Source: Onthophagus taurus
Lineage: Eukaryota > Arthropoda > Insecta > Coleoptera > Scarabaeidae
Direction of reading: 5' to 3'
DNA length: 64,000 nt
Assembly (NCBI RefSeq): GCF_036711975.1
Contig: NC_091976.1
Location: forward strand, 33,852,001-33,916,000
The translations under genes and the position numbers were made by a program. Below the pieces are notes generated by a model. The model saw only the letters and a program-made list of their open reading frames with translations, ran no database searches and was not told the origin of the DNA. This document shows, piece by piece, positions 15,201-64,000 of the stretch. How positions within the stretch are numbered: position 1 is the first letter of the stretch; every line of letters begins with the position of its first letter.

Positions 15201-18200
15201 GAAGATGTTCTTCAAAGAGTATTTTTTTTACTTATTCTATTTAATTCTTGAAAATTAATTTAATGTTGTTGTAGGAAATGTTATCAAGATCTTCGTTAGA
15301 AACTCAAAAGTTAGAATTAATGTCAGCTATGAGTGAATTAAAACTACAACATGCGGAGTTAGAAAGGGAATTGGTTCAATTGAGAAGTACTCAATATAAT
15401 AATAATTCCACCGTGGATTTGAATAAGAAATATCCGAGAGCTTCACCTCAACCTCAACAAACTTCCACTCCTATTCATCATTCGAGTCATCAAGTAAGAA
15501 ATGTTAATTTTTAATTTTTTAAATATTAAATTAATTTTTTTTTGAAAGAATTTAAGAACTTCACCATCTCCAAGTCAACTTTCCAGTTCGTTATCTTCAT
15601 CTCCTAGAAAAACGGATTCATCCAGCCAACAAGATGTTCAACAACCACCAAAGGTTTGTTTGTTTTTTTATGGTGATTTTGTGATGATTTTTGGAAATTT
15701 TTAGACGCCACCATCTAATTATCGGAGACAAATTGATTTGCAGTATTCAAGCTTGCCGCGTCAACAGTTTTTAAGTAATGGCGGCGCCTTGGGGGTGGTG
15801 GATTCGAATGCAAATCCCACGGACGGGGCCAGGAAAGGCGTGGCCTTTGGTAGGGGGTTTTCTTCACTTCTTGGGGGTCGGTCCAGGGGACATTCCGTTC
15901 CCAATCTAGGTGATAGCTCCAGTCTGTGGCATGCTCCGTCTTCGTCAATGTTTTTTTTTTTTTGTATATTTACCCGCTTTTTTCCGCTTAATGTATTATT
16001 CGTGCCTTTGACTTGAGCTATCTAACAAAATCTTATCTTCAATGATTATTTATTTAAAAAGAAGACGAAAATTATGTAAATAACGTTCAGCACCTTTCCT
16101 GGCTCTTTAGAATTATTTTAATCACCAAGCATGAAACTTTAAAAATTGTCTTTTTTGTTTTCTAATTAACTTTAAAATTAATTTAATAATTTCTATAAAC
16201 CAAATTTTTATAGCTGAAACTGAGAAGATTGTGATTGAAGATCTTGGGGATAACCCCCAATCGCCTTCGTTGCAATTTAATAAGAACAAGACTGGGATTA
16301 AAAAGATTATTGGGAAATTAAAACGATCCGGATCTGGAAATTTGGAGGATCTTCCTGGACTTGGGGAGTTTCAACGTGGAGGTGTTAGAGCAACAGCCGC
16401 GGCCAGGTTAGGTTGGAGCGAACCGCAGGCCTCGCAAAAGTAATTCATTTAATTTCATATGTTTATATATCATTACTTTTTTTTTAAGAAATCAAGTTTA
16501 CAATCGAAAATCGATTAACATCAAAAAATCTATTACTCAAATTAGAATGATATGGCACAATTTAGGTTGATACACTGAATTTCATTTAAGATGCAATATA
16601 CAAATAGTTATTTTTGATACAAAATAGCGAAATGACACTTTTACATTTTACAAGTTTCTTTTGCGAGCTTTAACGAACAAAAAAATCGTCCGAGCCTGAA
16701 GACGCACGGCTAAACCCGATACTTTCTAGGTCTAGTGTTAGTTCCAGTTTTATGCTAGCACTATCATTAGAACTAACACTAGACCTAAAACTAGAAACTT
16801 TTAGCCGTGCGTCTCTTAAGATGGCTAAATCTGAATGTTTCTACTTCTAGGTCTAACGTTAGTTCTAATGCGGTGGTTCCCAAAGTTTCTTTTATCACGC
16901 CTCCCTACTACCTAAAATCACAATACGACGCCCTCCTCACCGTAAAAGTTTTATTACAAAAGAATAAAATATAGTTTTCACACACATGCGTTAAGAAAGA
17001 ACAAATCAATTAACGAAATGGATGAGTTTGCATACTTCTGACAAGATTTCAAGAAGAGATTTTGTTGATATTTCAATTTTATTGCTACAACTGTAAATAC
17101 AGTTGCAGTGCTAATTCTGCTATGCTGAGATAAAGTTTGAGATATTTTACCCAAAATAGTGACTTAGGTATTCTCAAAATCATATTTAGCAGCAGAATCA
17201 TTTTTAATTACCATAACTTGCTCTTGGAGTGTTTCTGGTAGATCATCTATTTTAAAAAGGAAGTTGGATGTGGCCAACTTATAAATGTTGTTATCACACG
17301 AGTTAGAGAAGTAACGCTTGAATTTATGGCTGATGTGCTGCAAATGTTTTAATATTTTATTCTTCATATTATCAGTGCCCCAAAAAGCAGGAATAATTGC
17401 ATGCTAAAATTTTGCAATTCCAGACTTGCAATTTTTCAATGTACGTCGTGATGGCACCTCGATGATAAATTATGTTCTATTGCAATTTCAAGTTTAGTGA
17501 ATTCAAGGAATCAAGAATATCCGATAGATAAGGCAATACTACTAGGACAGTTGGTTTTCTGACATCAACATACTGTCATTATAGCTGTCATTGTATCATC
17601 TGCTTTTGAAGTTGTCGTTAACTCAGTAGAAAACAGCATTTCGTCTTTAGCTTTGTTCGTTGGGACTGCACTACTTGCACTCACTTGCACTAAGCAGTTT
17701 AGTGCAGATGTTGTGTGTTCGTTGGGGATAGTGCCGAGTATTTCGCTGACAATCTCCTGTTCGTCCATTTCAAATATTATACACTTTTTTTATAAAAATC
17801 TGTTCGTTGGGACCACGGTTTATACACTTTTCTGACCTGCACTAAGTTGACATGACATTGCACTGACTTACACTTCATTGCACTATGACGTCATACGAGT
17901 GCCATGTCGTGCAGAGTAGTGCAGTCCCAACGAACAAAGTTTTGATTGTTTCGTTATTATATCAAACAAAAACTAGCAATTAGTAACAATGTGCAACATG
18001 CGTAGTCTTGCCTAACTGCATTGCGAAAAACTTTGATTCTTTCACGTCTCTACTACCTGAATTTTCATGTCTGCGGCCATATCATCAATTTTTGTTTACT
18101 TTCTGGTTCAAGAAGAATATCAGCGGTTTCTAACAGGCAAGGTTTGATAAGAGTTTCACCGGTAATGTTGCTTTTCTTGGTCTTTGCGATGAGTCACTTA

Positions 18201-21200
18201 ATTGAGTAATGCCGGGTTTATACAGAATTTAGCTGTAAATTTAAAGATTTAGATTTAAGGATTTTATTTAGCTTTAAGAAAAAAATTGATTTATACAGAA
18301 TTTAAGATTTACAGAATCGCAACCTCAAGAAACAAAATATTACTGGTACTGGCCTTAAGGCCGGGTTTATACAGACGATTTAGCTGTAAATTTAAATTTA
18401 AAAATTTAACTGTAAGAGTTAAATGTATTGAAACCCCATGTATCGTTTATACAAGGCTGTAAGATTTAGCTGTAAACATAAAGTTGGTTAACTTTTCTAA
18501 ATTTACAACGTCACACATGTGCAAGACGACCTCAATCAGCTGTATCCAATGATCGAACGGTGTAAATCAAGGTTTATAGAACATAAGGTTATCTCATTCC
18601 CTATGCCTCTGTAGTATCGATTATTACCCCGCAAATTGACGTCACTGGTTCGATACAGTCAGAATAAAAGATAGCCATACGTGCCTATACTGTGGTACAG
18701 TCTATATAAAATATTTAAACCTCGCATCGTGTTGTGTTGTTCATAGAACCAGCTACGTCACTGACCCACCTTGCCTCTCAGAGGAGGAGAATCGGTATTG
18801 GGTAACCTTATGTTCTATAGACCTTGGGTGTAAATAGTGTGTTCTAACCGTTCTAACCTAACCTCAACTGTTGTTTATTTCTGTGCCAACAAAATGACTG
18901 AATTCGATGGAAAATTAATTAAAATTGTTGAGAACTACCGATATATTTACTATAAAAAATGTTCTGAACATAAACATAAGATATTGGTAGAAAATGACAA
19001 CACAAAAACCAGTAATATTTTGTTTCTTGAGGTTGCGATTTTGTAAATCTTAAATTCTGTATAAATCAATTTTTTTCTTAAAGCTAAATAAAATCCTTAA
19101 ATCTAAATCTTTAAATTTAAATTTACAACTAAATTCTGTATAAACCCGGCATAAAGGATCCAGTACAATCCAATTTTATGCGTTTCAAACTTCTAGAGCA
19201 GTGTTCTTCAACCTTTGTCATTGCGCGGAACCCTTTTTCGAGATAATTTTTTTATGGAACATCATATTATAATTAATTACATATTACATGTTGTGAACAA
19301 GATGCGTCTCTGCTTTCTTTGTAAAAACTCTATACAAGAGTAACTAACTTGTGTTTATTCAAACAAAAAGATAAATATTCCTTATAAAATATAAATATGT
19401 CATAAGCATAGTAATAGATAAATACTTACAAGTAGATAAAGACTTTGTTGTGCTTATTTATTACTGCACAATTTATCAATATCTGGATGAATCGATGTTA
19501 ATTGGAGACGCATATCATTTTCATCATCAAGTCGATTTCTGTACTTCGTTTTTGTACCGACGTATGTGGAAAAGGATTTCTCACAGAGATAGGTTGTTAC
19601 GATTCTTTTACGGCATTCTTTCACGGCTAAATCCGAATCATTCTAATTCTAGGTCTTGTGTTAGTTCTAATGATATGTTATTTAGCGTTAGATTGTGGTA
19701 TAGTTTTATTGAACGAAAAGTGACATAGGTATGAGAGCTAGAACCAAACATTTGGGTTGAGCCGTGCGTCTCTTAAGACGGAAACTCAGAGCTATCATAA
19801 GGACGTCACCTTTTCCAAGCAAAACTTTTCCTTTGCAAAACTACCCAATGCTTGTACTATAAGCTATATTGAATTTTATGTGGGACAGTGCAAGTGCATA
19901 GTAGTTTCGTAACTATGGTTATTGCATTCCCATATTGCAAGTTATATGAAATTCCCGGTATATAATAGTTATTTATATTACATGTAATCACACGAGTACT
20001 GCAATTATGCTCTAGCCCACGTGTGATATACAGCATTTTATCTACGACTGCTAAAAATCAATTTCTTTAAAAAAGTCTATTTGACATTTATAAAAATATT
20101 TTGAAATGATTGTTGACAATTTTGAATTGTCAGTTTCAACAACATGTTTACTCATCTGGAATAAGTGTTTTGAAATGTAAAAACATAACAATTAATGTTT
20201 ATAATAAATAGTATTGTTTCTCTGTAAATAATAGCACTTTTTCTTTTGTATTGTTGCTCGTTTCAATAAATTAAGTCTGTTCTGATTAGGCTAAAAATGC
20301 GTTACGTAATGAAACCAGTGCGGTAATGAACGTCATTACGTAACTCAAATTACCTCAAATGAGTGCGGTAATGATGACTTATCCAAGCAGTCGTAGATAA
20401 TAGTATATTAAAAAACAAGTTTCGTAAGACACGTTTGAAATGCACGAACTCAAGTTGAAAATCGAGTGGCGAAGCCACGAGTTTTTTAATGAATGAGTGC
20501 TTTAAGTCTTATGAAACGTGTTTTTTATGCTATTTTTTGTAATTCGCATTTTTACCCTTTTTTTTCCCTAAATAAAAATAAATGTTGACAATGTAGGGAA
20601 ATAGGTATGTAGCAATTGGTAACACTTGAAAATAGAAATTTGAATTGACAATTAGAAACTGTCAAAACACAAAATGTATTTACCTGACAAAAATGTTTTA
20701 TGTACACCTCCCAAAATAAGATAAATTGCTCAGAGTTCAATGTCCTCATCATTGTGGACTTCGTATTCGATGCTAAGAACGTGTTTAAATGTCACCAACT
20801 TGAACTGGTTCCTAAAATAAAATGTTACTAAAATCTCATTACAGCATCGGATGCTGTAAGGAGTCTCATTACAGCACCCGTTTGAGTACTGTTATAGCTT
20901 TCATTACCGTCGCGAATTACAAAAAGTATATTTCAAATGTTGATGTTGTGCTTTAAGCCCTTCTCTAACAATAAGATCTAGCGTAGAATAAATATTTGGT
21001 AAAAATAATTAAGATAATTCTATTATCTTTGCATCTTTCATGCGCTTTGCGCCACTTCACCAAAATTTAGTACCCTTGAATATATTAATTTCGGTTAATA
21101 TTTTAATAAATAACTTTTCGAATGTAAACTTAAAATTTTTCCATTACTATTAATTTAGCGCATTGCTTTTAGCAAGCTTGACTCTAAAACAAAAATAATT

Positions 21201-23315: not shown

Positions 23316-23665
23316 TATAATGTTAAGCGGATTTTAAAAACGATGTAGCGATAACATTTACCCTTAGGTTTTAGAGATATTTACAAGAATGAAAACGACC
23401 AAGTTAACCTATAAAAAAATTAAATAAATCGATTCAAATTTGTATTCGTATTGAATGTAAAATTAACTTTTTTTTTAAGTAAAGAAAAATTATTTAATCC
23501 CAATTTAAATATTTAATTATTTCCCAGTTAATAATTGTTTAGTACTCGTTTTTCTGATATCCTACTAATTTCCTCGATAGATCCCGATTTTCCTTTCTTA
23601 TTTTTTGATAAAGATGATTATGCTTTAACCCCGGATTCTTGGTGTTTCTTTCTTTCACCATGTTG
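23316..23665 (-). pseudogene. duplicated 3' end of the TSSK kinase gene
   Basis: About 350 bases match 27738-28096, same orientation. They cover the kinase gene's 3' flank, 3' UTR and the last 45 or so codons (AAAGAAAGAAACACCAAGAA region). Relative to the source, the copy has lost the 16 bases that encode part of the C-terminus, so it could not encode the same ending. It begins at AATGTTAAGCGGATTT and stops abruptly at 23665, beside the repeat block. Confidence 0.85.
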
Positions 23666-23686
23666 CATATTTTTATTGCATAAAAA

Positions 23687-23785
23687 CTAGAACAAACACT
23701 AAACTTAGAATTAGAAACATTCGGGTTTAGTCGTACGTCTCTTAAGACGGCTAATTCTAGGTTTAGTGTTAGTTTTAGTTTAATA
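23687..23785. repeat. palindromic CTAG-rich repeat, one unit
   Basis: CATTCGGGTTTAGTCGTACG TCTCTTAAGACGGCTAA flanked by CTAGAACAAACACTAAACTT and its facing arm. It lies just outside the left inverted end of the transposon at 23825. Confidence 0.8.
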
Positions 23786-24029
23786 TAAATATGCAACAAC
23801 ATAGCGACTAAAAGTAGAACTAAACTAACACTATGCCTTTTCAAGCACAAATTGGCACTAATCAGAATCAAAATGACATTAGTCAAAATCATATTGGCAA
23901 TGTCAATTTCAAATTGGCATTAGTCAAAATCAAATTGACAATAATCAAAATTAAAATGGCATTAGTCAATATCAAATTGGTAATAAACAATATCATATTG
24001 GCATTAATCAACAAATTAACATGGTTTCT

Positions 24030-25770
24030 AAGAATTTTTAAATTAGCATCTTTTTTGACTCTTTTAAATGTAAGTGTTGTTTCAACATTTTTTTTCTTAA
24101 TATTTTTCCAATCCAACCCAACAATTATTATACATCATTTTAAAGAGAAAGCTTTGAGCGTTAATTTAAAATAAGTTTCATTCCTTAATTTCAATAAATA
24201 CGGCTTACAGGAATTTTTAAATTAGCATCTTTTTAACATTTTAGGTTATTCGAAAATGTAAGTTTTATTTCAACTTTTTTTTCTCTATATTTTTCCAATC
24301 CAACCCAACAATTATTATACATCATTTTAAAGAGAAAGCTTTCAGCTTTAATTTAAAATAAGTTTCATTCCTTAATTTCAATAAATACGGCTTACAGGAA
24401 TTTTTAAATTAGCATATTTTTAACATTTTTAGGTTATTCGAAAATGTAAGTTTTATTTCAACTTTTTTTTTCTCTATATTTTTCCAATCCAACCCAACAA
24501 TTATTATACATCATTTTAAAGAGCAAGCTTTGAGTTTTAATTTAAAATAAGTTTCATTCCTTAATTTCAATAAATACGGCTTACAGGAATTTTTAAATTA
24601 GCATCTTTTTAACATTTTAGGTTATTCGAAAATGTAAGTTTTATTTCAACTTTTTTTTCTCTATATTTTTCCAATCCAACCCAACAATTATTATACATCA
24701 TTTTAAAGAGAAAGCTTTCAGCTTTAATTTAAAATAAGTTTCATTCCTTAATTTCAATAAATACGGCTTACAGGAATTTTTAAATTAGCATATTTTTAAC
24801 ATTTTTAGGTTATTCGAAAATGTAAGTTTTATTTCAACTTTTTTTTTCTCTATATTTTTCCAATCCAACCCAACAATTATTATACATCATTTTAAAGAGC
24901 AAGCTTTGAGTTTTAATTTAAAATAAGTTTCATTCCTTAATTTCAATAAATACGGCTTACAGGAATTTTTAAATTAGCATCTTTTTAACATTTTTAGGTT
25001 ATTCGAAAATGTAAGTTTTATTTCAACTTTTTTTTTCTCTATATTTTTCCAATCCAACCCAACAATTATTATACATCATTTTAAAGAGAAAGCTTTGAGC
25101 TTTAATTTAAAATAAGTTTCATTCCTTAATTTCAATAAATACGGCTTACAGGAATTTTTAAATTAGCATATTTTTAACATTTTTAGGTTATTCGAAAATG
25201 TAAGTTTTGTTTCAAAATTTTTTTTCTCTATATTTTTCCAATCCAACCCAACAATTATTATACATCATTTTAAAGAGCAAGCTTTGAGCTTTAATTTAAA
25301 ATAAGTTTCATTCCTTAATTTCAATAAATACAGCTTCCAGGAGTTTTTAAATTAGCATCTTTTTTGGCACTCTTAGGTTATACGAAAATGTAAGTTTTGT
25401 TTCAACATGTTTTTTGTCAATATTTTTCCAATCCAACCCAACAATTATTATACATCATTTTAAAAAGAAAGCTTTGAGCTTTAATTTAGAATAAGTCTCA
25501 TTCTTTAATTTCAATAAATACGGCTTCCAGGAATTTTTAAATTAGCATCTTTTTTGACACTTTTAGGTTATACGAAAATGTTAGTTTTAACTCAATACTC
25601 TTTTTCTCAATATTTTTTTAATTCAACACATCGATTGTTATACATCGGTTTAAACAGAAAGCTTCAAGCTTCAATTTAAAATAAGTTTTATTTCTCAATT
25701 TCAATAAACACGGTTTCCAGGAATTTTTGAATTAGCATCTTTTTTGACACTTAGACTATGCGAAAATAGG
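24030..25770. repeat. tandem array, unit 187-190 bp, nine to ten copies
   Basis: The phrase CGGCTTACAGGAATTTTTAA and its variants begin at 24201, 24388, 24577, 24764, 24953, 25142, 25331, 25521 and 25711. Middle copies are almost identical, and those at the right end are increasingly diverged. Each unit carries the constant blocks CCAATCCAACCCAACAATTA and TTCAATAAATACGG. No coding capacity. Confidence 0.95.
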
Positions 25771-26042
25771 GGGATTGCATATTTTGCTAAAATTTTATTC
25801 CAAAGGCCTTTACTGAGTGTATTTTGATAGCGTTTTAATTCTGTCTGATTCTGTCACAAACTTTCAAAATGTTTGACTTCTTGGGACACAAAGGGTTAAA
25901 TAAGTTTTATTTAAACAGTGGTTCATAATTTATTCATTAATTATTAATTTATTTCATTTTCGGCTTGTGAAAACACTAACAGATTCATGACAACGCTCAC
26001 AAGACATTTCGATTTCAGGTTATAATTATAGAGTTACATCCC
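25771..26042. other. no gene seen
   Basis: Unclassified sequence between the 189-bp array and the MITE at 26046, part of the composite transposon. Confidence 0.4.
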
Positions 26043-26045
26043 TTA

Positions 26046-26182
26046 GGCCCACTTTTACCACCTCTTGATAAATTTAACCGATAGATAAATTGGCGCTCTT
26101 AGCCAATGAGAGCGCTTAAAACCGCTGTAACCATGGTAATTATCTATCGGTTAAATTTATCAAGAGGTGGTAAAAGTGGGCC
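26046..26182. mobile_element. 137-bp MITE, nearly all inverted repeat, TTA target duplication
   Basis: Arms of about 41 bases (GGCCCACTTTTACCACCTCT through GATAGATAA) face each other across a loop of about 55 bases. TTA at 26043-26045 and 26183-26185 is a 3-bp duplication as made by PIF/Harbinger elements. The arms match almost perfectly, so the insertion is recent. Confidence 0.85.
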
Positions 26183-26276
26183 TTAGAAGAACAGACGTAC
26201 TTTTTCGACGTGGCTATTTGAATTGTACAGCAGACATATTAAACTAATGCTATCTTTTTCTAACACACATTACTCT

Positions 26277-27367
26277 CTAGCGGTTTGTGAATTTTAATTT
26301 ACTACGTATGGCATTTGTAAGAGCGGAAAACGATGATTTACTGCCAGCTCTCGTGGCGTCTACTATATCTTGCATATTTAATGCAGAAGGGATAAATCGT
26401 TGGATGTGGGCAATAAACATTGCGCAATTGGCAACAGTAATCTTGTCCATATTATTATGAACGGTGTTCTCTAATTTCTGCATTCGATATTCTGTTTGAG
26501 CCAGATGATCCCGGTCAGCACCAGCCAAGATGTTATTTAGCTGTACGGCCATATCTGCTTTTAATGCAGACCACGCTTGTTCAATAGGATTAAACATAGG
26601 GTTGTACGGACTTAGTCGTAAAAGTGTGTGGTGTTCAAATTCGTTTTCTGCAAAAACCTCTTCAATAGTAGAGTCGCAAGGAGCATTATCAATAACTAAT
26701 GCAACTCCAGTTTGGTAAAGGCCTTGCGCTCTTCATAGGCATTGCCTCACAAATTCATTTGCTTCCGGCTTCTTGAAAGAGCCCCGACGTAGTTCGGAAT
26801 GAATTAGCCCCATGTTTCCAATGCATCCTATTAGACACTGTTGTGCAGCGAGTCCCTTTTTTTGAACGACCCTGAGTCCGCGATATGAACAAATTAAAGT
26901 TTGTCTCCTCCATGTATATGATAGGTATATGTTGTGCTTGAAGATCCAATAAATTTTCTACATAAATACTCCTGCCTGTTTTCGTTTGAATACTATTCGC
27001 GTTCTCTGGTTCTCTACGAGCAGTCTTCAAAGTAAACATCAATCCATTGAGATGCTGTCGAACGCATTCGTTGGAGACATTGAGTGCAAAATCTTCACGG
27101 ATTTTTTTCACTCAGTCCTTTAAGAGTAATTTTAGGATTTTCTTCGACTGAACGTTCCATGAATTGACGGTGCTCATCAGTTATTTTAGCTCTACGTTTA
27201 CCCCCTCGCTGCTTTTCCGGTTGTTCTTGGTTGTTAACCCATCGATACGCGGTTCTTTTTGGCACCTGTAGTACGTTTGCAAGATTACGCCAGTCACGAT
27301 TGGCATTATACAAAGCGCAAATCTGTGTCCTCAGATTTGCAGCAGCATTTTTCTTTAAATAAGGCAT
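26277..27367 (-). pseudogene. IS630/Tc1/mariner-superfamily transposase (DD35E type), broken
   Basis: Reads from 27367 leftwards: a helix-turn-helix part (WRNLANVLQVPKRTAYRWVN), a linker, then the DDE_3 fold. The second catalytic Asp is in ALVIDNAPCDS, and the Glu, 35 residues on, is in PMFNPIEQAWSALK. The first catalytic position reads IIYMEETNFNLF, so Glu stands where Asp is expected. The gene is interrupted by a one-base shift near 27105, another near 26850 and a TGA at about 26738. It was the probable mover of the element at 23825-27670. Confidence 0.8.
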
Positions 27368-27663
27368 CTCGTGTGAATATAATAGTTTAAATCTCGCAAT
27401 AAATTACCATAAACTTGACAACAACCGATAAGTTAACAATTGTTTGACACCGATTTATACATTTATTTTTCATGCCATCTTGATATTGTTTGGTGCCAAT
27501 ATGATATGGCCTAATGTCATTTTGATTTTGTTTAATGCCAATTTGCTTTTGATTAGTGCTAAATTTGTTGATTAATGCCAATATGATATTGTTTATTGCC
27601 AATTTGATTTTGACTAATGTCATTTTGATTCTGATTAGTGCCAATTTGAGCTTGAAAAGGTAT

Positions 27664-27735
27664 AGAACTAACACAAGATCTAAAACTAGAATCATTCGGG
27701 TTTAGCCACCTTGAAAGACATGCGGCTACATCTCA
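27664..27735. repeat. palindromic CTAG-rich repeat, half unit
   Basis: AGAACTAACACAAGATCTAA and ATTCGGGTTTAGCCACC directly outside the right inverted end of the transposon. Confidence 0.7.
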
Positions 27736-29118: not shown

Positions 29119-32100
29119 TTATTTATTAAAAAATTCACCATACAAAGACATTTTTTGGATAAACGGTTGAGCGTTACAACTTAATATTTCATATCTTTCA
29201 CTCCAAGTGGAGTTAATTGGAAATTTATTATCTTGACGAAATCTCTCCAACATCTTTTGCGGATCAAATTTTTCTTTGAATAAAGGACCAAGTTTTTTTG
29301 ATTTTTTTTCCTGTAAAGTTTTCGAGACATTTTCTTTTTCAATTAAAACACTATTATTATCCTCAGTTTTTAAAGTAACAATTTCATAACTCCCTACTCC
29401 AGTATTTTTTAAATCATCTTCATCTCGATTATTTTCTTTTTTATCAACATTTTCAGGAAATTTTGTTGATCGTCTTTTAACATCCGAGATTGATTCACCA
29501 CGGAACACATTTCTCTTTGATTTTAACTCGGAGAAATCATAAAGTTTCAATTTGGGGATATCATAACAACAATGCAAAGCGCTCGGATCAATCGGATGAG
29601 CTTCCGTGTTAAAGATATAACCCCCGGCGTAAATCACACATTCACCGTTTGGTGTATCGATAATTGTCCCGGATTGGCCTTGATTATGAATGAAATTATC
29701 TGGGTCAAAAAGGAGATATAAGTACTTAGTTGTTTCCGCTAAAAAGAAAGATTCCATTCTATCTTCTTTCCGATGATCTCTAACATCTTTAATCTAAAAA
29801 AAAATTATTTAAATATACAGCGTAAGCCGGTTATAACGAACTTCCGGTTATAACGAACGAACGAACGTAATAGTCCCGAAAAAATCTTTATTTAACACAA
29901 TCTAAATAAATTTGACTATAACGAACTAATTATTATTGAAGTGGTTCCGGTTTTAACAAATTACCTGATCGAGTGAATTTATATACGTTGAACTTATATA
30001 CAATTTGATTCTGCTATTTTTTGAAAGATGGCGCCATAATATTTTTCTTATCTATCGGGGAATCACAGAAAATACTCGAACGTAAGTGTTAAAAAAAATC
30101 TGAAAATGTAATCACGATGTAGATAAAGCTTTTAAAATTTTAAACTTAAAAGCAACGGAATTCGGTCAAAAGTTACAAGATGACTTGGAATGTACTCAAA
30201 GCTGGACAGAACGATGGAAAGCACGTCATAACGTTTGTAGCGGTATAATAGTTGAGAAATCAGCAGCAGTAGATCCAAAAATCGTCGACAATTGGATACC
30301 CTGAAGGTTCCAAACACCATCAAACCTAAATCCAAATTCAAACCAAATTTTTATTCAATTAATCAGTCAATAATGTTCAACTCCTTTTGCCACACAACTA
30401 AACAACATGCTTATCTCCAATCCTAAATAACATTTCTGCAATACACAACCCAACCCATCCCTCAACTCTATCTAATCTTAATCCATTCAACTAAATTCCA
30501 AGCTTATCATCAATAATAATTTTCTGCCTCACCACAAATCTGAATATAAATGTAGGTCCAATTTACATACAGTTAACCAAATCTTCATCGTACCCTACTC
30601 TACTCAGCTTAACACAAACAAAACCTCGTCTCCATTCAAGTCAAATCTCTGTCCAACTTCAATAAAGCTTATTTTCATCTACCTCGACCTCAACCTAATC
30701 AAATCCAATCGCAATCTTGGCTAACTCCAAGACAACCCAACATCAAATCTAACTAACCCAACTCAAACCTCATCTCCATCCAACTCTATTTCATCTTAAG
30801 TCAATCCATCTCAATCTTTATCCAACTTAATTCCAAGGTCGTCTTCAACAAACCGAACGTATCACAAATAAAACATAGTCTCAATTCAAGTCAATTCAAA
30901 CAAATATATCAATCGAACACAATTTTAAGTTCATCTCTGTCCAACTCAAAATAAATCTTATCTTCATCTAGTTTGACCTCAACCTTATCCAACCCAATCG
31001 CATCTCCAATAACCCTAACACAACTCAACTTCCCCTCAAACTAAGTTAACCGCAAATTCATACCCATCCAATCTAACTCAACCTTAGCATTAAGTACAGT
31101 GTGTTAATTAATTATCGTAATCCACGTGACTTGTGTGATATTGGCTGCATATCTCAATATGTTGACAGCTGATCGAACGTTATTGTTGCGATTGTCATAC
31201 GCTTTGTGAGTTTCCGTATTTTCTTTGTTCTTTAACCGTCTTTTACTTCAACTATCGTTGTGTCTAGTAGTTACTTTCAACATTAATTTCAATCTATGGG
31301 TACACTAAAAATTATTTTAAATAAAAGGACAGAAAGTTAGACCTTTTTTGTATTCAAAATATTTTTTTAATTATTAAAATATATCTAAATATATTTTAAA
31401 CGGCTTTTAAAGTTAATGAATTGTCGCCATCGTTTTTAGGAACTTTCGTCGCGTTGCAATACCAATCTGTGATATTGGTTGCATACTTTATCGGGTACGA
31501 TAATTAATTAACTGTACATCCACTTCAGCTTACATCAAATTCCAAACTTAAAATCACATGAACTTGCAATTAATCAATAATTTTCGATTAAACAATATCC
31601 TTATCAACCTCATTATCATCCAACATCTCTTATATCCAATCCAACTCAACGCATACATCAAGATAGTGCATTACATCGTCTGAAGACGCATGGCTAATCC
31701 CAAAAGTTTCTAATTCTAGGTCTAGTGTTAGTTCTAGTTTTGCACTAATAGTATCACTAGACCTAACACAAGATCTAGAACTAGAAACATTCAGGTTTAG
31801 CCGTCTTGAGAGACGTGCTGCTAAATCCGAATGTTTCTAGTTCTAGGTCTAGTGTTAGTTCTAGTTTTGCACTAGCACTGTCGCTAGAACTAACACAAGA
31901 CCTACAACTAGCAACATTGAGGTTTAGCTGACTAAAGAGATGCATAGCTAACCCGAATATTTCTAGTTCTAGGTCTAGTGTTAGTTCTACTTTTGCACTA
32001 GCACTGTCACTAGAACTAACACAAGACCTACAACTAGCAACATTGAGGTTTAGCTGTCTTCAGAGATGCATAGCTAAACCCGAATGTTTCTAGTTCTAGG

Positions 32101-34748
32101 TCTAGTGTTAGTTCTAGTTTTGCACTAGCACTGTCACTAGAACTAACACAAGACCTACAACTAGCAACATTGAGGTTAAGCTGTCTTAAGCGATGCATAG
32201 CTAAACCCGAATGTTTCTAGTTCTAGGTCTAGTGTTAGTTCTAGTTTTGCACTATACTTCGTTTTTTTTCTATAATACTTGTCAATGTAAATTTTTTAGG
32301 GTTTCTGTTGGTATTATCTTGGACCCTTATAAAATTTACGTTATTTTCCTGATTTTTAGTAACATTTTCAGTAACTAAATAGTTGAGGTTAAAATACTAA
32401 TAAATTTGTAGATAAATACAATTTTAACGAAGTACATATTTATTGTAAAAACGTGCTAAAAAGTAGTAAATGGCAAACAAACACCCTACAACATTTTTGA
32501 TGCACCTTTTCTTTTGGAATAACCAAGGAATAACAAAAGCTCAAACGTCAGTGTGACATATCTATTTCAAAACATGATAAAACAAAACTCCCTGTTAATT
32601 TTGCCAACTTTACAACAATTTGACAGGTATTATAGAAAAAAAATGCTAAACCCGAATGCTTCTAGGTCTAGTGATAGTGCTAGTGCAAAACTAGAACTAA
32701 CACCATACCTAGAACTAGATTAGAACTAAATTTTTCGTGGAGTGAATAATAGCGGTGAATAATCATTATTCACGGGTAAACAATTTGACAGGCTAATAAC
32801 CTTCCGATAATAATTATTTGAAACGTCAAAATTTCAAAAAACCTCAATTTTATTTAATTTTTTAGGACTTTCTAAAGGTTTGACATTAAAAAACCTAAAC
32901 AAATTTTTGTTCTACTAATTTAAGCATAAATTAATTAATTTTCGTAAAAAAAACATTAAGACATTTAATTTTGACAAATTGTTGTGAAGTTGGTTATAGT
33001 TGGTATCATTGAATATGTGTCACATTGACGTTTAAACTTCATTCAAAAACGTATTTAAAAAATAAATTTATGGAATTTATTAAATAATTTTGTTAATGTG
33101 TATATTGAAAGGATGGTTTGCAACAAATCCTCAAATTCAAACCAAAATTACCAAGTTTTTTAAATAACTTGTTACCTTTATTTCTTTTAATTTCCTCCCA
33201 AATTGTTTAATTTTATTCAATTTAATAACGATTATTGTCAATTTAATTTAAATAAATTTAATTAATGATTTTTTAAATTATTGCCTATAACGAACCGATT
33301 TTGAGATTCATTGAGGGTTCGTTATATCCGGACTATACTGTATTTAAATATATTAACATCAATAAAAATTTTCTTACCGTCGCATATCCACAAGGAGTTT
33401 TAGCACTATACTGAATACTTCTCAAAATATCAACCCCAACCTCAAGAAGATAAGGATCTCCTGTTGCTCTATAAAGATACATAACAGATTCAATTAATTC
33501 AGGCCTTAATGGGTAATTTTCCCGATTAGCGCCCGCTTCCATTTGCAAAATGTTATAAAATTCAGGTGTGAACCCATATTGTTGCCAAACTTGATGATAA
33601 TTATGCAAAGTTCTCATCGCAGAGGACGTCTCCCCTATTAAACTAAGCACCCCGGGCCAATAAGCCTCCAAAGATTGAAAAACGGGTATAGTAACCTGCC
33701 CCTTTGTCATCGACACCCACAAATACCAATCATCCCGTTTTAAATATTTATCGATTCCTTTTCGTGCTTCATAAAACATCTCTAATAATTCGGGTTTTTG
33801 CAACAAAATCGATCCTTTAACTAAATATTCAAAATATGAATCCACCCCAGAACCTATCCCAGAATCTTGAGCCGTCCAGCGACCAGTTGCCACATCAATA
33901 TGATTTCCAAACAAACCTAATTGCGATTGATGATGATATAAAGCGTTTAAAGCGTTTGTTGCGACCTAAATCTTAGTTATTAAAACAATATCTAATATAA
34001 ATCATTAATTTTACTTCTTCGTAAAGCGGATCTCCCGTTAATCGACTCAAAGTACCAAATTCCAAAATAAACGTCCCAATTCCAGCAGTACAAGTAACCG
34101 TTGTTTCCCCGGGTGGAATTCCACTTCTCAAATTAATTGTACCGTAAGGCATTCCTGTTGGTGTATCAAACGCTACAATAAGCCTTTTTGCAACATCTTC
34201 GGCTAATCGCAAAAGGGGACCATTACAAGGCCATCCAGGTTCAAGTTTAGCACCTGCTCTATTTAAAACGATTTTAGAAAGTATTTAATTTAAAACCGTT
34301 GATCATACTTATGTGATAATAAATGGGCGCTGAGTAATCCTCCAATTATACGTATATTTGTCTCAAAAACCGAGACGTTTATGTTTGAATCAAAGTTTTC
34401 TTTAGCTGTTAAGATTTCAGCAACACGTTGAAATTCCGTATAATTACCCATAATTGCTAAAGTATCTAATGCGTCTATTAACGTTAAAGAGTAACTGCCG
34501 TACGTATCTATTCCATCACACGATAAAGGTCTTAATTCATCGTATGGATAAGCATATTTTAAATAACTATCGTAAGCGTGGTAAAACATACCTCTTACTT
34601 CTTCTCTAAAATAAAGGAAGATAATTAAACAGGGTTTAAACAAGACTTTAATTTACCTAAACTTTATAATATCTTCTTTGGTGTAGCTATTTAATCCATT
34701 ACAATAATTACAAAGAGTTAATAAAATGATTGTTAACCACATTTTCAT
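29119..34748 (-). CDS. Edem2: EDEM2, ER degradation-enhancing alpha-mannosidase-like protein, five exons
   Basis: Glycoside hydrolase family 47 protein that helps mark misfolded glycoproteins for ER-associated degradation. Exons: 34748-34657, 34605-34309, 34258-34015, 33965-33378 and 29793-29119. Phases join to 631 residues. Residues 1-18 ([17 protein letters not shown]) are a signal peptide. Family blocks follow: [121 protein letters not shown] and [10 protein letters not shown]. The last is the conserved C-terminal Thr site. The exon 4-5 intron is 3.6 kb and filled by a pogo-like element. After about residue 480 the tail is charged and family-specific. The last two sense codons and the stop form AATAAATAA. 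Confidence 0.95.
30130..30305 (+). pseudogene. pogo/Tigger transposase DNA-binding fragment
   Basis: Plus-strand frame reads [20 protein letters not shown], then [12 protein letters not shown], the second half of a CENP-B-type helix-turn-helix as found in pogo transposases. Only about 55 codons survive, and the catalytic part is gone. Confidence 0.55.
30345..31090. repeat. G-depleted, strand-asymmetric degenerate repeat
   Basis: About 750 bases whose plus strand has very little G and is dominated by words such as CCAACTCAACC, CATCTCCATCC and CAATCCAATC. It looks like an old minisatellite with a unit of roughly 20-30 bases. No coding capacity. Confidence 0.6.
31097..31514. mobile_element. 418-bp MITE with TA target duplication
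   Basis: Ends CAGTGTGTTAATTAATTATC and, inverted, CAGTTAATTAATTATCGTA. The similarity then continues through GATATTGGTTGCATA-type sequence. TA at 31095-31096 and 31515-31516. Tc1/mariner-like and non-autonomous, inserted in the pogo-like element. Confidence 0.65.
31680..32262. repeat. array of the palindromic CTAG-rich repeat, about four to five units
   Basis: Units repeat every 120-130 bases with TTTTGCACTAGCACTGTCAC as the loop of the first palindrome. The second palindrome is degenerate here (GGTTTAGCTGTCTTCAGAGA TGCATAGCTAAACCCGAA). A further half unit lies at 32640-32720. Confidence 0.9.
32730..33290. other. intronic, no gene seen
   Basis: AT-rich remainder of the pogo-like element inside the EDEM2 intron. 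No coding signal. Confidence 0.4.
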
Positions 34749-46760: not shown

Positions 46761-47508
46761 ACTTTAAGGGTTCTTTTTTTCGAGCGCTTCTTTTTTTTTT
46801 GTTTTTGGAAAAGAAAAAGAGGAAAGATGAGGTTATTCTTTAAAGTGGAAGAGTTTCTTTAGCACGATTTTACCCGCTTCTTTTTGTTTGTGAGATCGTT
46901 TAAACGTAGAATAAAACGTTTATATTTTATTTTCAACTTGTTTGAATGTTTTCGATTTTGTTTTTATTATTCATTGTTCATTTTTTACATCAGGTGTTCT
47001 AAGAACAGTTTATGTTAACAATAAGTTTTATTTCCTTCGAGTTTTTGCAGTTACAAATAAAACAAAATCATTTGACAGAGATTCTATGCATTTTGTGCAA
47101 TCAATCAAAATTATGAAGCTAATCTACCTGGGGATCACTGGGACCATACAAGAAATTAGTTCATCCACGACGACCGTCCATTAGAACTTTACAGGGTTCT
47201 GGCCAATACAAAAATTTGAAAATTCAGATTTAAATATTATTAATTGCGTTCTCTTCGACTAAAATATTTTCAGATTTCTAGCACTTCTTTATTTTTTTAA
47301 ATGGAACACCCTATATATTAAACTAAGATTAGAACTAAAACTAGAAACTTTCGGGTTTTGCCGTGCGTCTTTTAATAAAAGGTTTGACGTTTCGGATGCC
47401 ATGTTGCAACCTTCTTCAGAAACTGGTTCGAAGTGACGAGATCAAAAAATCGGTAACTATATATAAGTCGGAAAAACTAATTAATAATCAGTTAACGCTA
47501 ATTACAAA

Positions 47509-47946
47509 CTAATTAATAACTAATTGCGTCGCGTCCGGTGTGAGGCGGGAAGAGGTCTTCGTGTTCACCACCATCTTCCATGTTCTGCTAAGCTCCCAGC
47601 CATCCTCTCTGTTGACGTTATTTTTATGTCGGTGAATCTCTATGGCTTCTCTTGTCAGTCTTTGGTAGTATCTGTTGTCCCTAGCCAGCACCTTTGTTTG
47701 TTCGAAGTTTATTCGGTGCCCCTCTGCATGGCAATGTTCCGCAACCGCCGACTGCTGGATCTTCTTCAGCCTTACATCCTTCTCATGCTCCTTGATGCGG
47801 CACTCGACATTGCGCCCAGTTTGGCCAACATAAACCTTCCCACAACTACACGATATTCGATAGACTCCCGCTCCTTTTAATGGAGTTAGTTTGTCCTTGG
47901 CTATCGGGAGTGTGTTCCGAATTTTGCTGACCATGCCGTACCGCAC
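47509..47946 (-). pseudogene. Penelope-like GIY-YIG endonuclease domain
   Basis: The open frame contains GVYRISCSCGKVYVGQTGRN, the GIY-YIG core, then RIKEHEKDVR, AEHCHAEGH and LTREAIEIHRHKNNVNREDG. This is the endonuclease that nicks the target in Penelope-like elements. The domain is intact as far as can be seen, but it is separated from the reverse transcriptase by frame breaks near 47950-48200. Confidence 0.85.
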
Positions 47947-48201: not shown

Positions 48202-49020
48202 CTAGGGATGATGATGTGAACATGCCTGTAAATACCTGTTGGTATGGGTCTTCTTTCGGTATACACCAAGTTCTATATCTCCATTTGTCGTCCTGGTGAC
48301 CAACACACCTAGGAAAGGTAGTTTTTTGGCAGTTTCTGTTTCCATGGTGAACTTAATCATAGGATGTTGAGAGTTCAAGTGATCCAAGAACTCTTGGTGC
48401 CGTTTTTGACCATGTTGCCATACACAAACGTGTCATCCACATATCGGAGCCATAGTTTTGGTTTCCACTGGCTCTTCTTCAAAGCGTCCTCTTCGAATAA
48501 TTCCATGTAGAAATTAGCTATAACTGGCGATAGTGGAGATCCCATGGCTGCCCCTTCGGACTGCTCGTAAAATTCTCCTTTCCAGCTGAAATACGTCGAC
48601 GATACCAGATCTGGCACGTATCCTGGTAAACCCTCCGGAATGAGTTTTCGGCGAAGACCCTCTACAGCATCCTTAACTGGTACCCTAGTAAAAAGGGATT
48701 CCACATCGAAACTTACCAACATATCCCCAGCATCCAGCTTTACACCTTTTACCGATTCCACAAAATGTGTAGAATCCCTGACATACGATTCCGTGTTACC
48801 TGTAAAGGGGGACAGAATCTTTGCAAGATGTTTAGCCAGCTGGTATGTTGGGGAGTTGATGGCGCTGACGATAGGGCGGAGGGGGACGTCTGGTTTGTGA
48901 ACGTGGTTTGCGCCTGCACAAACAAACTTTTCTGCTGTTCTGCTGGAATTCCTGTGGATTTTATCAGTTCCTTCATTTTTCTAACGATTTTGTCTGTGGG
49001 GTCCTTCTTTAATTCATTAG
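48202..49020 (-). pseudogene. Penelope-like reverse transcriptase, broken
   Basis: Reads KKDPTDKIVRKMKELIKSTG at the right, then LVSFDVESLFTRVPV, AAMGSPLSPVIANFYMELFE and the catalytic LRYVDDTFVYG. A frame shift near 48400 leads to FLGVLVTRTTNGDIELGVYR. The order (RT finger, palm with YVDD, then GIY-YIG) is that of Penelope-like elements. The 5' part of the RT is missing, so the copy is truncated and inactive. Confidence 0.85.
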
Positions 49021-53450: not shown

Positions 53451-54115
53451 CAGGGTGTTTTATAATATATGCGCAGGACTTGAGGATGTGATAGCTTGTT
53501 CAAAAATTTATAACAAAAGCTACCTCCTGTCAAAATAACAATTAGTTTGTACCTGCAAAAAGTAAACTTGTATTACAAAATTAAAAATGAATTACACAAA
53601 CGCTGAAATGTGCGAAATGCACTACCTTTACGGAATGGCGTGCGGTAATTCGGCAGAAGTAAGGCGGTTGTATCAAGAAAGACATCTTGATCGACCAGTA
53701 CCACACCATAACTTGTTTCTACGCATTCACCAACGACTATGGGAAAATGGAAGTTTTAAAAGGAATACTGCTGATAATGGGCGGCCTATGGACGTTGCAA
53801 ATCCCCAAATAGAAGAGGCTGTCCTCAACGAAATTGATGAAAATCCCACCACAAGTACCAGAAAAATTGCTCACAACTTAAACCTATCTCACTCGACGGT
53901 TTGGAGAATTTTGAAAAAGCATCTTTTGTATCCCTACCATATCCAAAGGGTACAAGCCTTATTACCAAGAGATTTTCCGCCAAAATTGGCCTTGTGTACA
54001 CATTTGCACTCGAAAATAGTGCATTTTAGAGTATAAGTTGATAGAAACTCTTTTTCAAATTTTTGGAGAAGCTATCACATCCTGAAGACCTGCGCATATG
54101 TTATGAAACACCCTG
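53451..54115. mobile_element. 665-bp internally deleted mariner-type element
   Basis: Ends CAGGGTGTTTTATAATATAT and, inverted, CAGGGTGTTTCATAACATAT, similar for about 50 bases. TA at 53449-53450 and 54116-54117. It carries only the start of a transposase (53587-54036). Confidence 0.9.
53587..54036 (+). pseudogene. mariner transposase N-terminal DNA-binding part (DUF4817-type)
   Basis: An uninterrupted frame of 149 codons starting MNYTNAEMCEMHYLYGMACG, then FLRIHQRLWENGSFKR and NPTTSTRKIAHNLNLSHSTV with WRILKKHLLYPYHIQRVQAL. These are the two helix-turn-helix motifs that bind the inverted repeats. The DDE catalytic domain is missing, and the frame runs into the element's right end. Such a truncated protein could still bind the ends and act as a competitor, but that is inference. 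Confidence 0.75.
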
Positions 54116-54299: not shown

Positions 54300-54560
54300 T
54301 GAAGACGTACGTAGTGTTAGTTCTACTTTTAGTTCAACAAGGATATACAACAATCTAGCGCTGAATAACAATTAAAACTAGAAGTAACACTAGACTTAAA
54401 ACTAGAAACATTCGGGTTTAGCCCCACGTCTCTCAAGACGGCTAAACCCGAATGACTATAGTTCTAGGTCTTGTTTTAGTTCTAGTTTTAGTTCAACAAG
54501 TATATACAACAATCTAACGCTTAATAACAACTAAAACTAGAGCAAACACTAGCTATAGAA
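54300..54560. repeat. palindromic CTAG-rich repeat, about two units
   Basis: ATTCGGGTTTAGCCCCACGT CTCTCAAGACGGCTAAACCC is flanked by arms whose loop reads CAACAAGTATATACAACAAT, unlike the loop in other arrays. Confidence 0.85.
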
Positions 54561-54675
54561 CACTATTCCAATCTGGGTCTGCTGACCAATAAGTAAGTTT
54601 GCGTGTTGACAGAAGACATATTTTTGCCAGTTGTAAAACACTAAAACTGAGGCTCTACCATTGAGGTCTTATATA

Positions 54676-62250: not shown

Positions 62251-62344
62251 CATTCCACTTAACTATAATATTAATTCTATTTATTCTTTATATACCGGGA
62301 ATTTCATATAATTCACAATATATAAATGCAGTAACCATAAATGT

Positions 62345-64000
62345 TACGAATGTTTCTAGTTCTAGATGTTAGTTCTAGTGTTAGTTCTAGTGTTAGTTCT
62401 AGTGTTAGTTCTAGTTTTACACTAGCACGGTTACTATGTAGAACTAACACTATACCAAGAACTAGACCCATTTGGGTTTAGCCGTACGTCTCTAAAGACG
62501 GCTAAATCCGAAAGTTTCTAGTTCTATGTCAAGTGTTAGTTCTAGTTTTACACTTACACTGTTACTAGAACTAATATTAGACTTAGAACTAGAAACATTT
62601 GGGTTTAGCCGTACGTCTCTTAAGACGGCTAAACCCGAATGATTCTAGTTCTTGGTCTAGCGCTGCATAACAATTAAAACTAGAACTAATACTGGACGGC
62701 TAAACCCGAATGATTCTAATTCTCGGTCTAGTATTAGTTCTAGTTGTACACTAGCACTGTTACTATGTAGAACTAACACTATACCTAGAACTAGAATCAT
62801 TTGGGTTTAGCCATACGTCTTTAAAGACGGCTAAACCCGAATGATTCTAGTTCTAGGTATAGTGTTAGTTCTAGTTTAACACTAACACTGTTACTATGCA
62901 AAACTAACACTATACCTAGAACTAGAATCATTTGGGTTTAGCCGCACGCCTCTAAAGACTGCTAAACCCGAATGATTCTAGTTTTCGGTCTAGTGTTAGT
63001 TCTAGTTTAACACTAACACTGTTACTATGCAAAACTAACACTATACCTAGAACTAGAATCATTTGGGTTTAGCCGCACGTCTCTAAAGACTGCTAAACCC
63101 GAATGACTCTAGTTTTCGGTCTAGTGTTAGTTCTGGTTTAACACTAACACTGTTACTATGCAAAACTAACACTATACCTAGAACTAGAATCATTTGGGTT
63201 TAGCCGCACGTCTCTAAAGACTGCTAAATCCGAATGATTCTAGTTTTCGGTCTAGTGTTAGTTCTAGTTTAACACTAACACTGTTACTATGCAAAACTAA
63301 CACTATACCTGGAACTAGAATCATTTGGGTTTAGCCGCACATCTCTAAAGACGGCTAAACCCGAATGATTCTAGTTCTAGGTATAGTGTTTGTTCTAGTT
63401 TAACACTAACACTGTTACTATGCAAAACTAACACTATACCTGGAACTAGAATCATTTGAGTTTAGCCATACGTCTTTAAAGACGGCAAAACCCGAATGAT
63501 TCTAGTTCTAGGTATAGTGTTAGTTCTAGTTTAACACTAACACTGTTACTATGCAAAACTAACACTATACCTAGAACTAGAATCATTTGGGTTTAGCCGC
63601 ACGTCTCTAAAGACGGCTAAACCCGAATGATTCTAGTTCTAGGTATAGTGTTAGTTCTAGTTTAACACTAACACTGTTACTATGCAAAACTAACACTATA
63701 CCTAGAACTAGAATCATTTGGGTTTAGCCACAGGTCTCTAAAGACTGCTAAACCCGAATGATTCTAGTTTTCGGTCTAGTGTTAGTTCTAGTTTAACACT
63801 AACACTGTTACTATGCAAAACTAACACTATACCTAGAACTAGAATCATTTGGGTTTAGCCACAGGTCTCTAAAGACTGCTAAACCCGAATGATTCTAGTT
63901 TTCGGTCTAGTGTTAGTTCTAGTTTAACACTAACACTGTTACTATGCAAAACTAACACTATACCTAGAACTAGAATCATTTGAGTTTAGCCGCACGTCTC
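62345..64000. repeat. palindromic satellite array, 131-bp unit, continuing past the window
   Basis: From about 62935 the phrase TTTAGCC(G/A)(C/T)A recurs at 62941, 63072, 63203, 63334, 63465, 63596, 63727, 63858 and 63989, exactly 131 bases apart. The leftmost 600 bases hold more divergent, irregular units. Each unit contains the two palindromes described for 11040-12172, here with loop TTTAACACTAACACTGTTAC. Constant spacing shows recent amplification at this end. Confidence 0.97.

Follow-up and report, generated by a model that had tools for sequence, protein, structure and literature searches.

Non-autonomous DNA transposons that hold internal tandem repeats and seed satellites are already known, namely miDNA4, Xstir, Tetris, Cg_HINE and TCAST, and the first three are the closest precedents for the repeat described here. 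As outlined in a review, miDNA4 of Xenopus is a Tc1/mariner MITE that holds a satellite, and its longer arrays are thought to outlive its ends (PMC12628747). The same overview presents Xstir, also from Xenopus, as occurring in MITE, tandem array and composite forms, with a stem-loop model for its growth (PMC12628747). For the foldback transposon Tetris / DAIBAM of Drosophila virilis and its TIR-220 satellite, 395 of 610 repeats were reported in repeat-only contigs (PMC4079207).

We analyzed a window of 64,000 nucleotides from the beetle Onthophagus taurus (C11:33852001-33916000) and searched the genome it belongs to (290.8 Mb in 33 contigs) for a palindromic repeat, part of whose islands lie inside a transposon, here called the carrier. 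Like miDNA4, the carrier is a non-autonomous element with terminal inverted repeats (TIRs) and one to many copies of a satellite-like repeat, but in contrast to miDNA4 as the review portrays it, the repeat forms a complete hairpin with a match to a retroelement end (PMC12628747). Its MITE, array and composite forms recall the description of Xstir (PMC12628747). Tetris, too, is a non-autonomous DNA transposon with internal tandem repeats that are also arrayed outside it. In the published account the Tetris repeats lie within long TIRs and target duplications measure 8-10 bp, whereas the tips found here are flanked by TA; Tetris arrays grew in beta-heterochromatin, and here exact left-end (LE) tips on C1-C3 crowd near contig ends with few mid-contig (n = 63 among the matches listed) (PMC4079207). 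TCAST elements of Tribolium castaneum similarly comprise satellite segments in TIR elements across beetle euchromatin, but they are reported as the major pericentromeric satellite of that species, a role not seen here (PMC3411249). Cg_HINE elements of Crassostrea gigas likewise disperse satellite-like central repeats by way of non-autonomous elements, yet they are classified as Helentrons, while the carrier has TIRs and TA-flanked tips (PMC7492417). Literature titles and abstracts, most subscription journals being outside the search, yielded no palindromic satellite that stems from Penelope-like ends and is carried by a DNA transposon, and strings of the repeat sequence returned nothing relevant.

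The palindromic unit and its local growth

The unit alternates palindrome A, with CTAG-rich arms and a variable loop, with palindrome B (CGGGTTTAGCCG … CGGCTAAACCCG). With up to 2 mismatches, the core CGGGTTTAGCCG has 55 matches in the window against 1.95 expected from shuffles (largest shuffle, 8), and the 11 islands sum to 4416 bp. An initial annotation of the window had placed the two-palindrome unit at a series of sites, every one of which was recovered together with a fragment absent from its list (32644-32728). It had also described a fixed core with loops that change from site to site. All four of its loop strings were found in islands, with TATGTAG 15 times more outside them, but only 13 of the 55 core matches were exact, so that the core is conserved and not invariant. 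A small number of loop classes can be told apart by eye: a short one (TTTTACACTAGCACTATCACTAG), a short one containing TATGTAG, a truncated one (TTATGCAGCGC) and a long one (…AATAAAAATATACAACAATCTAGCGCTGAATAACAATT…). They recur in blocks and resemble deletion derivatives of a long loop. When folded from one B centre to the next, the 131-nt unit forms a single hairpin of -46.5 kcal/mol, compared with a mean of -9.4 kcal/mol for shuffled units (z -16), in agreement with the hairpins that had been proposed. The over-representation of CTAG holds inside islands, where 170 copies occur in 4416 bp instead of the 15 expected (an elevenfold enrichment), and fails elsewhere, the motif being depleted in the other 59584 bp (101 copies vs 189 expected).

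Genome-wide, exact cores numbered 7573 + 7677 against 5 + 1 for the backwards pattern, and half-units with up to 3 mismatches numbered 21158 + 21054 (42,212) against 0 + 1 for the same control. Loci bearing arrays were obtained from eight contigs between C1 and C11 (C1, C2, C3, C5, C6, C7, C10 and C11), and the repeat is therefore not confined to this scaffold. Classical satellite DNA forms long arrays in heterochromatin or at centromeres. All sampled islands were shorter than 3 kb, but the sample consists mostly of isolated cores, and denser core clusters exist in the genome.

The focal array (62347-64000, running past the window end; as for the other islands below, no strand is assigned) contains 12-bp sub-repeats, irregular 127- and 202-bp units and ten 131-bp units with a 95% match, which bears out the 131-bp satellite first described. 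One 131-bp unit, at 62828-62958 (no strand assigned), is a single hairpin that reaches from one palindrome centre to the next. A terminal sequence of the carrier right end (RE), with a tip of TA followed by CCGGGAATTTCATATAA, adjoins the array at 62291-62350 on the minus strand (88% match to RE positions 124-180). Traced by eye in locus L064, the array reaches about C11:33916965, is interrupted by a foreign element of about 515 bp, and stops on its far side near a B centre without LE. The interrupting element (L064, about 125-640) shows inverted ends CACTGAGTGAAAT...ATTTCTCTCAGTG by eye.

Elsewhere in the window, the core search gave a fragment at 8490-8545, and tandem-repeat and core analysis delimited a second array with 115-, 127- and 131-bp units at 11031-12180. 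The dispersed island at 16699-16870 has an edge-type half-unit (GAAGACGCACGGCTAAACCC), and another at 19622-19781 is directly followed by a carrier right end. Flanks of the island at 23661-23833 recur around the island fragment at 27663-27732. A third array, with 126- and 127-bp units (31683-32254), has a palindrome centre as its left edge (GTCTGAAGACGCATGG), the island at 47314-47375 overlaps a retroelement terminus, and the one at 54300-54561 belongs to the long loop class (ATATACAACAAT).

To compare units, we took 128 of them from 40 arrays in loci L001-L028 and the window. Median identity was 0.886 within arrays (402 pairs) and 0.739 between arrays (1500 sampled pairs), which indicates that arrays grew locally, as the initial annotation had supposed. 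The two arms of one unit had a median identity of 0.822, equal to that of arms from different arrays (0.822) and below that of arms from other units of the same array (0.867). Own-unit arms are thus no more alike than foreign arms, and hairpin pairing does not appear to be specially maintained.

Several further features were recorded in passing. An ORF with a winged-helix match (53587-54036) lies close to the 54.3-kb island and also has weak, below-cut-off matches to Tc3-type transposase DNA-binding domains. A tandem duplication of about 1295 bp with 59-bp repeats inside occupies 2537-4645, where TRF scores are equal at 2537 and 3832 and again at 3196 and 4491. The two array fragments with matching flanks in 23661-27732 surround a block of about 3.8 kb, which carries 21-bp sub-repeats at either end and, at 24066-25752, a tandem array of 189/376 bp; it resembles a further foldback-type element or an inverted duplication. 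The window also holds an odorant-receptor ORF (7tm_6, E 6.3e-19), a mark of insect DNA. A ribozyme or structured RNA in the unit was considered and rejected, Rfam matches being sub-threshold only and mostly to miRNA-precursor hairpins; a sub-threshold twister-P1 ribozyme match was seen at L064:3961-4020 (46.9 bits, gathering score 67.2, E 5.7e-8). Viral spread was likewise rejected, with 0 exact matches to a degenerate palindrome B pattern in IMG/VR. The only perfect six-fold TTAGG/TCAGG run of the assembly is internal (C3:12202483-12202517), and the backwards control for (TTAGG)6 gave 10 matches.

A carrier transposon around part of the islands

We clustered the 114 flanks of 59 islands from 28 C1 loci and the window, loci that had been chosen for the core (mostly isolated cores) and not for ends. 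One large cluster of 23 related flanks was obtained, and these resolve into two ends, LE (TA followed by CAGTGAATTTCACTTAAGATGCAATATAC…) and RE (TA followed by CCGGGAATTTCATATAACTCGCAATATATGAATGCAGTAACC…). The ends carry imperfect TIRs of about 100 bp (CAGTGAATTTCAC… and CCGGGAATTTCAT…), and those of L065 align as inverted repeats with a score of 69 (highest of 1000 shuffles, 44). Allowing up to 2 mismatches, the genome contains 304 + 345 copies of the LE tip and 281 + 276 copies of the RE tip, with 0 for each control. Among ends aligning within 3 bases of the query end, TA, which may belong to the tip itself, stood before 10 of 10 LE tips and at 14 of 15 RE tips (TT in L033). Seven two-tipped copies measure 371-734 bp; the search strings for these included TA, and its presence in 7/7 is no test. 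For 7 joined flank pairs no empty site was found, no match spanning the join beyond a few A/T bases, and a TA duplication is therefore not proven; the flanks of these pairs are single-copy sequence, except for L039, where the flank is the tip of another repeat. No longer duplication was seen at carrier tips in the flanks inspected.

The number of internal repeats varies from a half-unit (L065) through one to several units (L029, L031, L066-L068) up to arrays of more than 1 kb (L023, L041). All seven loci picked by their tips (L065-L068, L070-L072) contained array units; the choice was not random, having fallen on tips paired at short distance, on a tandem and on tips with a transposase nearby, and no right end was seen in L070. 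In the window, an LE tip (16570-16613, plus strand, 86% match) stands about 90 bp before the island at 16699-16870, and a complete carrier right end (19783-19962, plus strand, 93% identity to the query) ends at TA. For part of the islands, the carrier is a non-autonomous TIR (MITE-like) transposon with internal tandem repeats. Its CAG ends and TA presumably fit, by analogy, the Tc1/mariner-pogo superfamily; no DDE transposase belonging to a carrier was seen. The suggestion that the palindromic unit had spread as a mobile unit is thereby upheld in respect of dispersal, with copies genome-wide and boundaries shared by some of them in the form of carrier ends, but not in respect of the palindrome as a proven mobile unit: for part of the islands that unit is the TIR transposon around the array, and most sampled islands are without a carrier boundary.

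A limited search, covering the PF03184 transposase family only, found no autonomous partner with the same ends. Transposases of this family lay at most 3.3 kb inside three LE tips against about 0.17 expected (an estimate, among the matches listed). Those of L070 and L071 were rejected as unrelated neighbours and that of L072 as a nested pogo/Tigger-like element with its own ends. Among relatives of this nested element, L074, L076 and L077 end in ...GGGGTATTACTGTA, L073 shows TATTACTGTA about 0.5 kb further on, and L075 and L078 are without that end sequence. Helitrons and Helentrons have no TIRs and possess a 3' hairpin with a CTRR end. A Helitron reading, based on a hairpin followed by CTAG, was dropped because the carrier has TIRs and TA-flanked tips. 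Assignment to Foldback elements of the Tetris type was rejected as well, the array sitting between the TIRs and the tips being TA-flanked.

Carrier tips in the correct orientation were found within 600 bp of 14 of the 59 islands, on both sides in 2, compared with 2 of 59 for the reversed-tip control. Longer end pieces placed a carrier end at 17 of the 59 islands, or 18 with one marginal case, and a clear majority of sampled islands have non-carrier edges. Some were split by later insertions (L016, L027). Others lie in macro-tandems: in L068 carrier RE, host flank and array repeat together with a period of 704-710 bp, and the 674-bp macro-tandem of L069 (C2:4844700-4846200), which combines an array piece with a palindrome-centre edge and unrelated DNA, is a chimeric satellite. 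By eye, the element of about 1.7 kb at L016:5018-6747 has ends CAGGGTGGTTC...GAACCATCCT and splits an array unit at TA.

A Penelope-like terminus resembling the array half-unit

The terminus overlapped by the 47.3-kb island (47316-47463, plus strand) is that of a Penelope-like element, and its outer part matches the array half-unit. A near-identical 148 bp occurs at L064:3177-3323; the shared 148 bp begin within a half-unit like those of the arrays and continue into a different element. Further on in the window lie an ORF with a GIY-YIG-like motif recognized by eye (GVYR..VYVGQTGR; 47509-47946, minus strand), for which Pfam, NCBIfam and PDB searches gave nothing relevant, and a reverse transcriptase fragment of this element (48375-48761, minus strand; RVT_1, E 4.6e-11). 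Locus L084 holds a 435-aa reverse-transcriptase ORF (RVT_1, E 9.1e-14) together with an ORF of 145 aa in which a GIY-YIG-like motif was recognized by eye and confirmed by no profile. A hammerhead-like CTGAAGA...CGAAAC was also noted by eye, with no Rfam hammerhead match at 47250-47560.

Penelope-like elements make target duplications of roughly 10-15 bp and have inverted or partial-tandem ends, and the tail CCGGCCGTGAAAGCCTTCG is a hallmark of theirs; as a text string, this tail returned nothing in a literature search. Genome-wide, the element-end junction was found in 460 + 413 copies with up to 2 mismatches (control, 0), and among 100 matches listed, junction pairs within 8 kb were facing in 16 cases and back-to-back in 3. 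Loci L079-L085 comprise six facing pairs and one single. The loci chosen as facing pairs (L079-L084) contain, by eye, insertions with inverted ends and direct duplications of 11-13 bp, for example TATTCCTGGTG in L082 and TAAAATAAGTC in L081. With this architecture and these duplications, the element of the window and L084 fits a Penelope-like assignment. A published account gives Penelope-like retroelements a reverse transcriptase, a terminal pseudo-LTR sequence and a tail, all of which find a counterpart here, while with the arrays only the terminus is common (PMC11167929).

When the element end was aligned to 128 array contexts, the median score was 51 and the best 79, the latter from an ungapped alignment with 53 of 62 bp identical. 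None of 2560 shuffles exceeded 35 and reversed contexts reached 25; the best shuffle was surpassed by 114 of the 128 contexts. Homology runs from near the B centre on one side to inside the A loop on the other, which makes one array half-unit the counterpart of one retroelement end, and two facing ends the counterpart of one array hairpin. Judged by these alignments, the array half-unit is homologous to the Penelope-like terminus, and we infer the direction of descent below.

Origin and dispersal of the repeat

We favour, with a probability of roughly 0.6, the reading that the repeat is a transposon-borne palindromic minisatellite built in three layers, those of building block, growth and dispersal. 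The half-unit, an arm plus half of palindrome B, is homologous to about 60 bp near the Penelope-like end and would derive from it, and an inverted retroelement pair with a shortened centre would give the hairpin of the array design. Hairpin units would then have multiplied head to tail at individual sites, which accounts for the pattern of unit identities, probably by unequal exchange or replication slippage, to give units of about 115-131 bp with a likeness to their neighbours in the array. Arrays from a half-unit to many units, found for part of the islands as the interior of non-autonomous TIR transposons at TA, would have been dispersed with these carriers, presumably moved by cut and paste through a transposase of Tc1/mariner-pogo type encoded elsewhere. 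The other islands, which make up most of the sample, would be end-less carriers, fragments split by insertions, joins at palindrome centres, parts of larger tandem duplications, and ends that belong to the retroelement itself. Nothing points to a host function of the repeat. Several observations count against this model: carrier tips occur at only 14 of 59 islands, neither an empty site nor an autonomous partner was found in the searches above, and retroelement copies look younger than arrays. Since these copies look younger, the segment could instead come from an array, but its embedding in other retroelement sequence speaks for the direction from retroelement to array.

That most islands spread without transposition, from broken or circular array DNA cut at the centre of an extruded palindrome and inserted by end joining or microhomology, seems to us somewhat unlikely. 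For some islands, the edge does fall at the centre of palindrome B (CGGGTTTAGCCG). Among 29 occurrences of the half-unit variant GAA-ACT-TTC, 18 were unpaired (limit for a partner half, 45 bp), compared with 29 of 238 for the common variants GAA-TGA/TGT-TTC (Fisher p 1e-8, on related copies that are not independent cases). The variant GAA-ACT-TTC marks a free edge at the palindrome centre, partly next to unique flanks, and occurs genome-wide in 1182 + 1163 (2345) copies with up to 2 mismatches; at 20 loci around exact edge variants some edges were free, in unique DNA or within other units, and others were joined. Junctions within a palindrome, reported for the phBglII400 satellite, offer a precedent (PMC5139131). 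However, the edge-specific variant is common to many islands, which argues for common descent of the terminal unit and not for independent breaks, and part of the islands are clearly inside carriers. For the palindrome-centre edges we favour, without proof, loss of carrier ends combined with break-and-join at the palindrome. We also regard it as unlikely that the retroelement took the half-unit over from an older array, in which case the palindrome would have another origin and the Penelope-like element would be a third vehicle. At least 100 of the 873 retroelement-end junctions are exact over 28 bp, whereas the arrays have diverged, and the retroelement hairpin of L082, with its duplication, stands beside an array unit, which shows that the element can insert into or beside arrays. 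Capture is at odds with the context of the common segment in L079-L084, which is flanked by retroelement sequence on at least one side of each insertion (the CCGGCCGTGAAAGCCTTCG tail outside, the CGAAACGTC region inside). Related elements of other animals share this tail and, at the corresponding position, possess a comparable segment, which also speaks against it.

An improbable reading makes the hairpin unit, or a short run of units, a miniature inverted-repeat transposon in its own right, independent of the carrier and terminating at the palindrome centre (GTCTGAAGACGCACGG). In its favour, a unit makes one hairpin between successive centres, the edge variant exists, and two edge variants facing each other form the borders of at least 6 stretches (330-859 bp), of which three lie in L050, L052 and L054 among the 20 edge-picked loci. 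Yet no single unit bounded on both sides by a palindrome centre was noticed among the window and C1 islands or the 20 edge loci, and no target duplication was noticed by eye around such units or at palindrome-centre edges in general. Maintenance of the hairpins for a function, as a source of small RNA or as a chromatin or recombination signal, is very improbable: the hairpins are strong and receive miRNA-precursor scores, but these are below curated thresholds, Rfam gives no match at the gathering score in the window, and the own-unit arm identity of 0.822 does not rise above that of arms from different arrays or from other units of the same array.

Within the preferred three-layer reading, the full course of events would be a relay, from inverted Penelope-like ends to hairpins, from hairpins to arrays, and from arrays to spread by a TA-inserting DNA transposon, with the palindrome centre as a recurrent point of break and join; we hold this tentatively, at a little short of even odds. 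The evidence hints at an unusual relay between two kinds of mobile DNA, although precedents are known for each step. The origin of dispersed satellites is a long-standing question, and this one genome holds the repeat as fragments, as arrays, inside carriers and in macro-tandems, together with a related retroelement end, so that the order of events is testable across related species. If the relay is true, DNA transposons can distribute repeats that were seeded by retroelement ends, and foldback hairpins, palindrome breakage and satellite birth would become linked.
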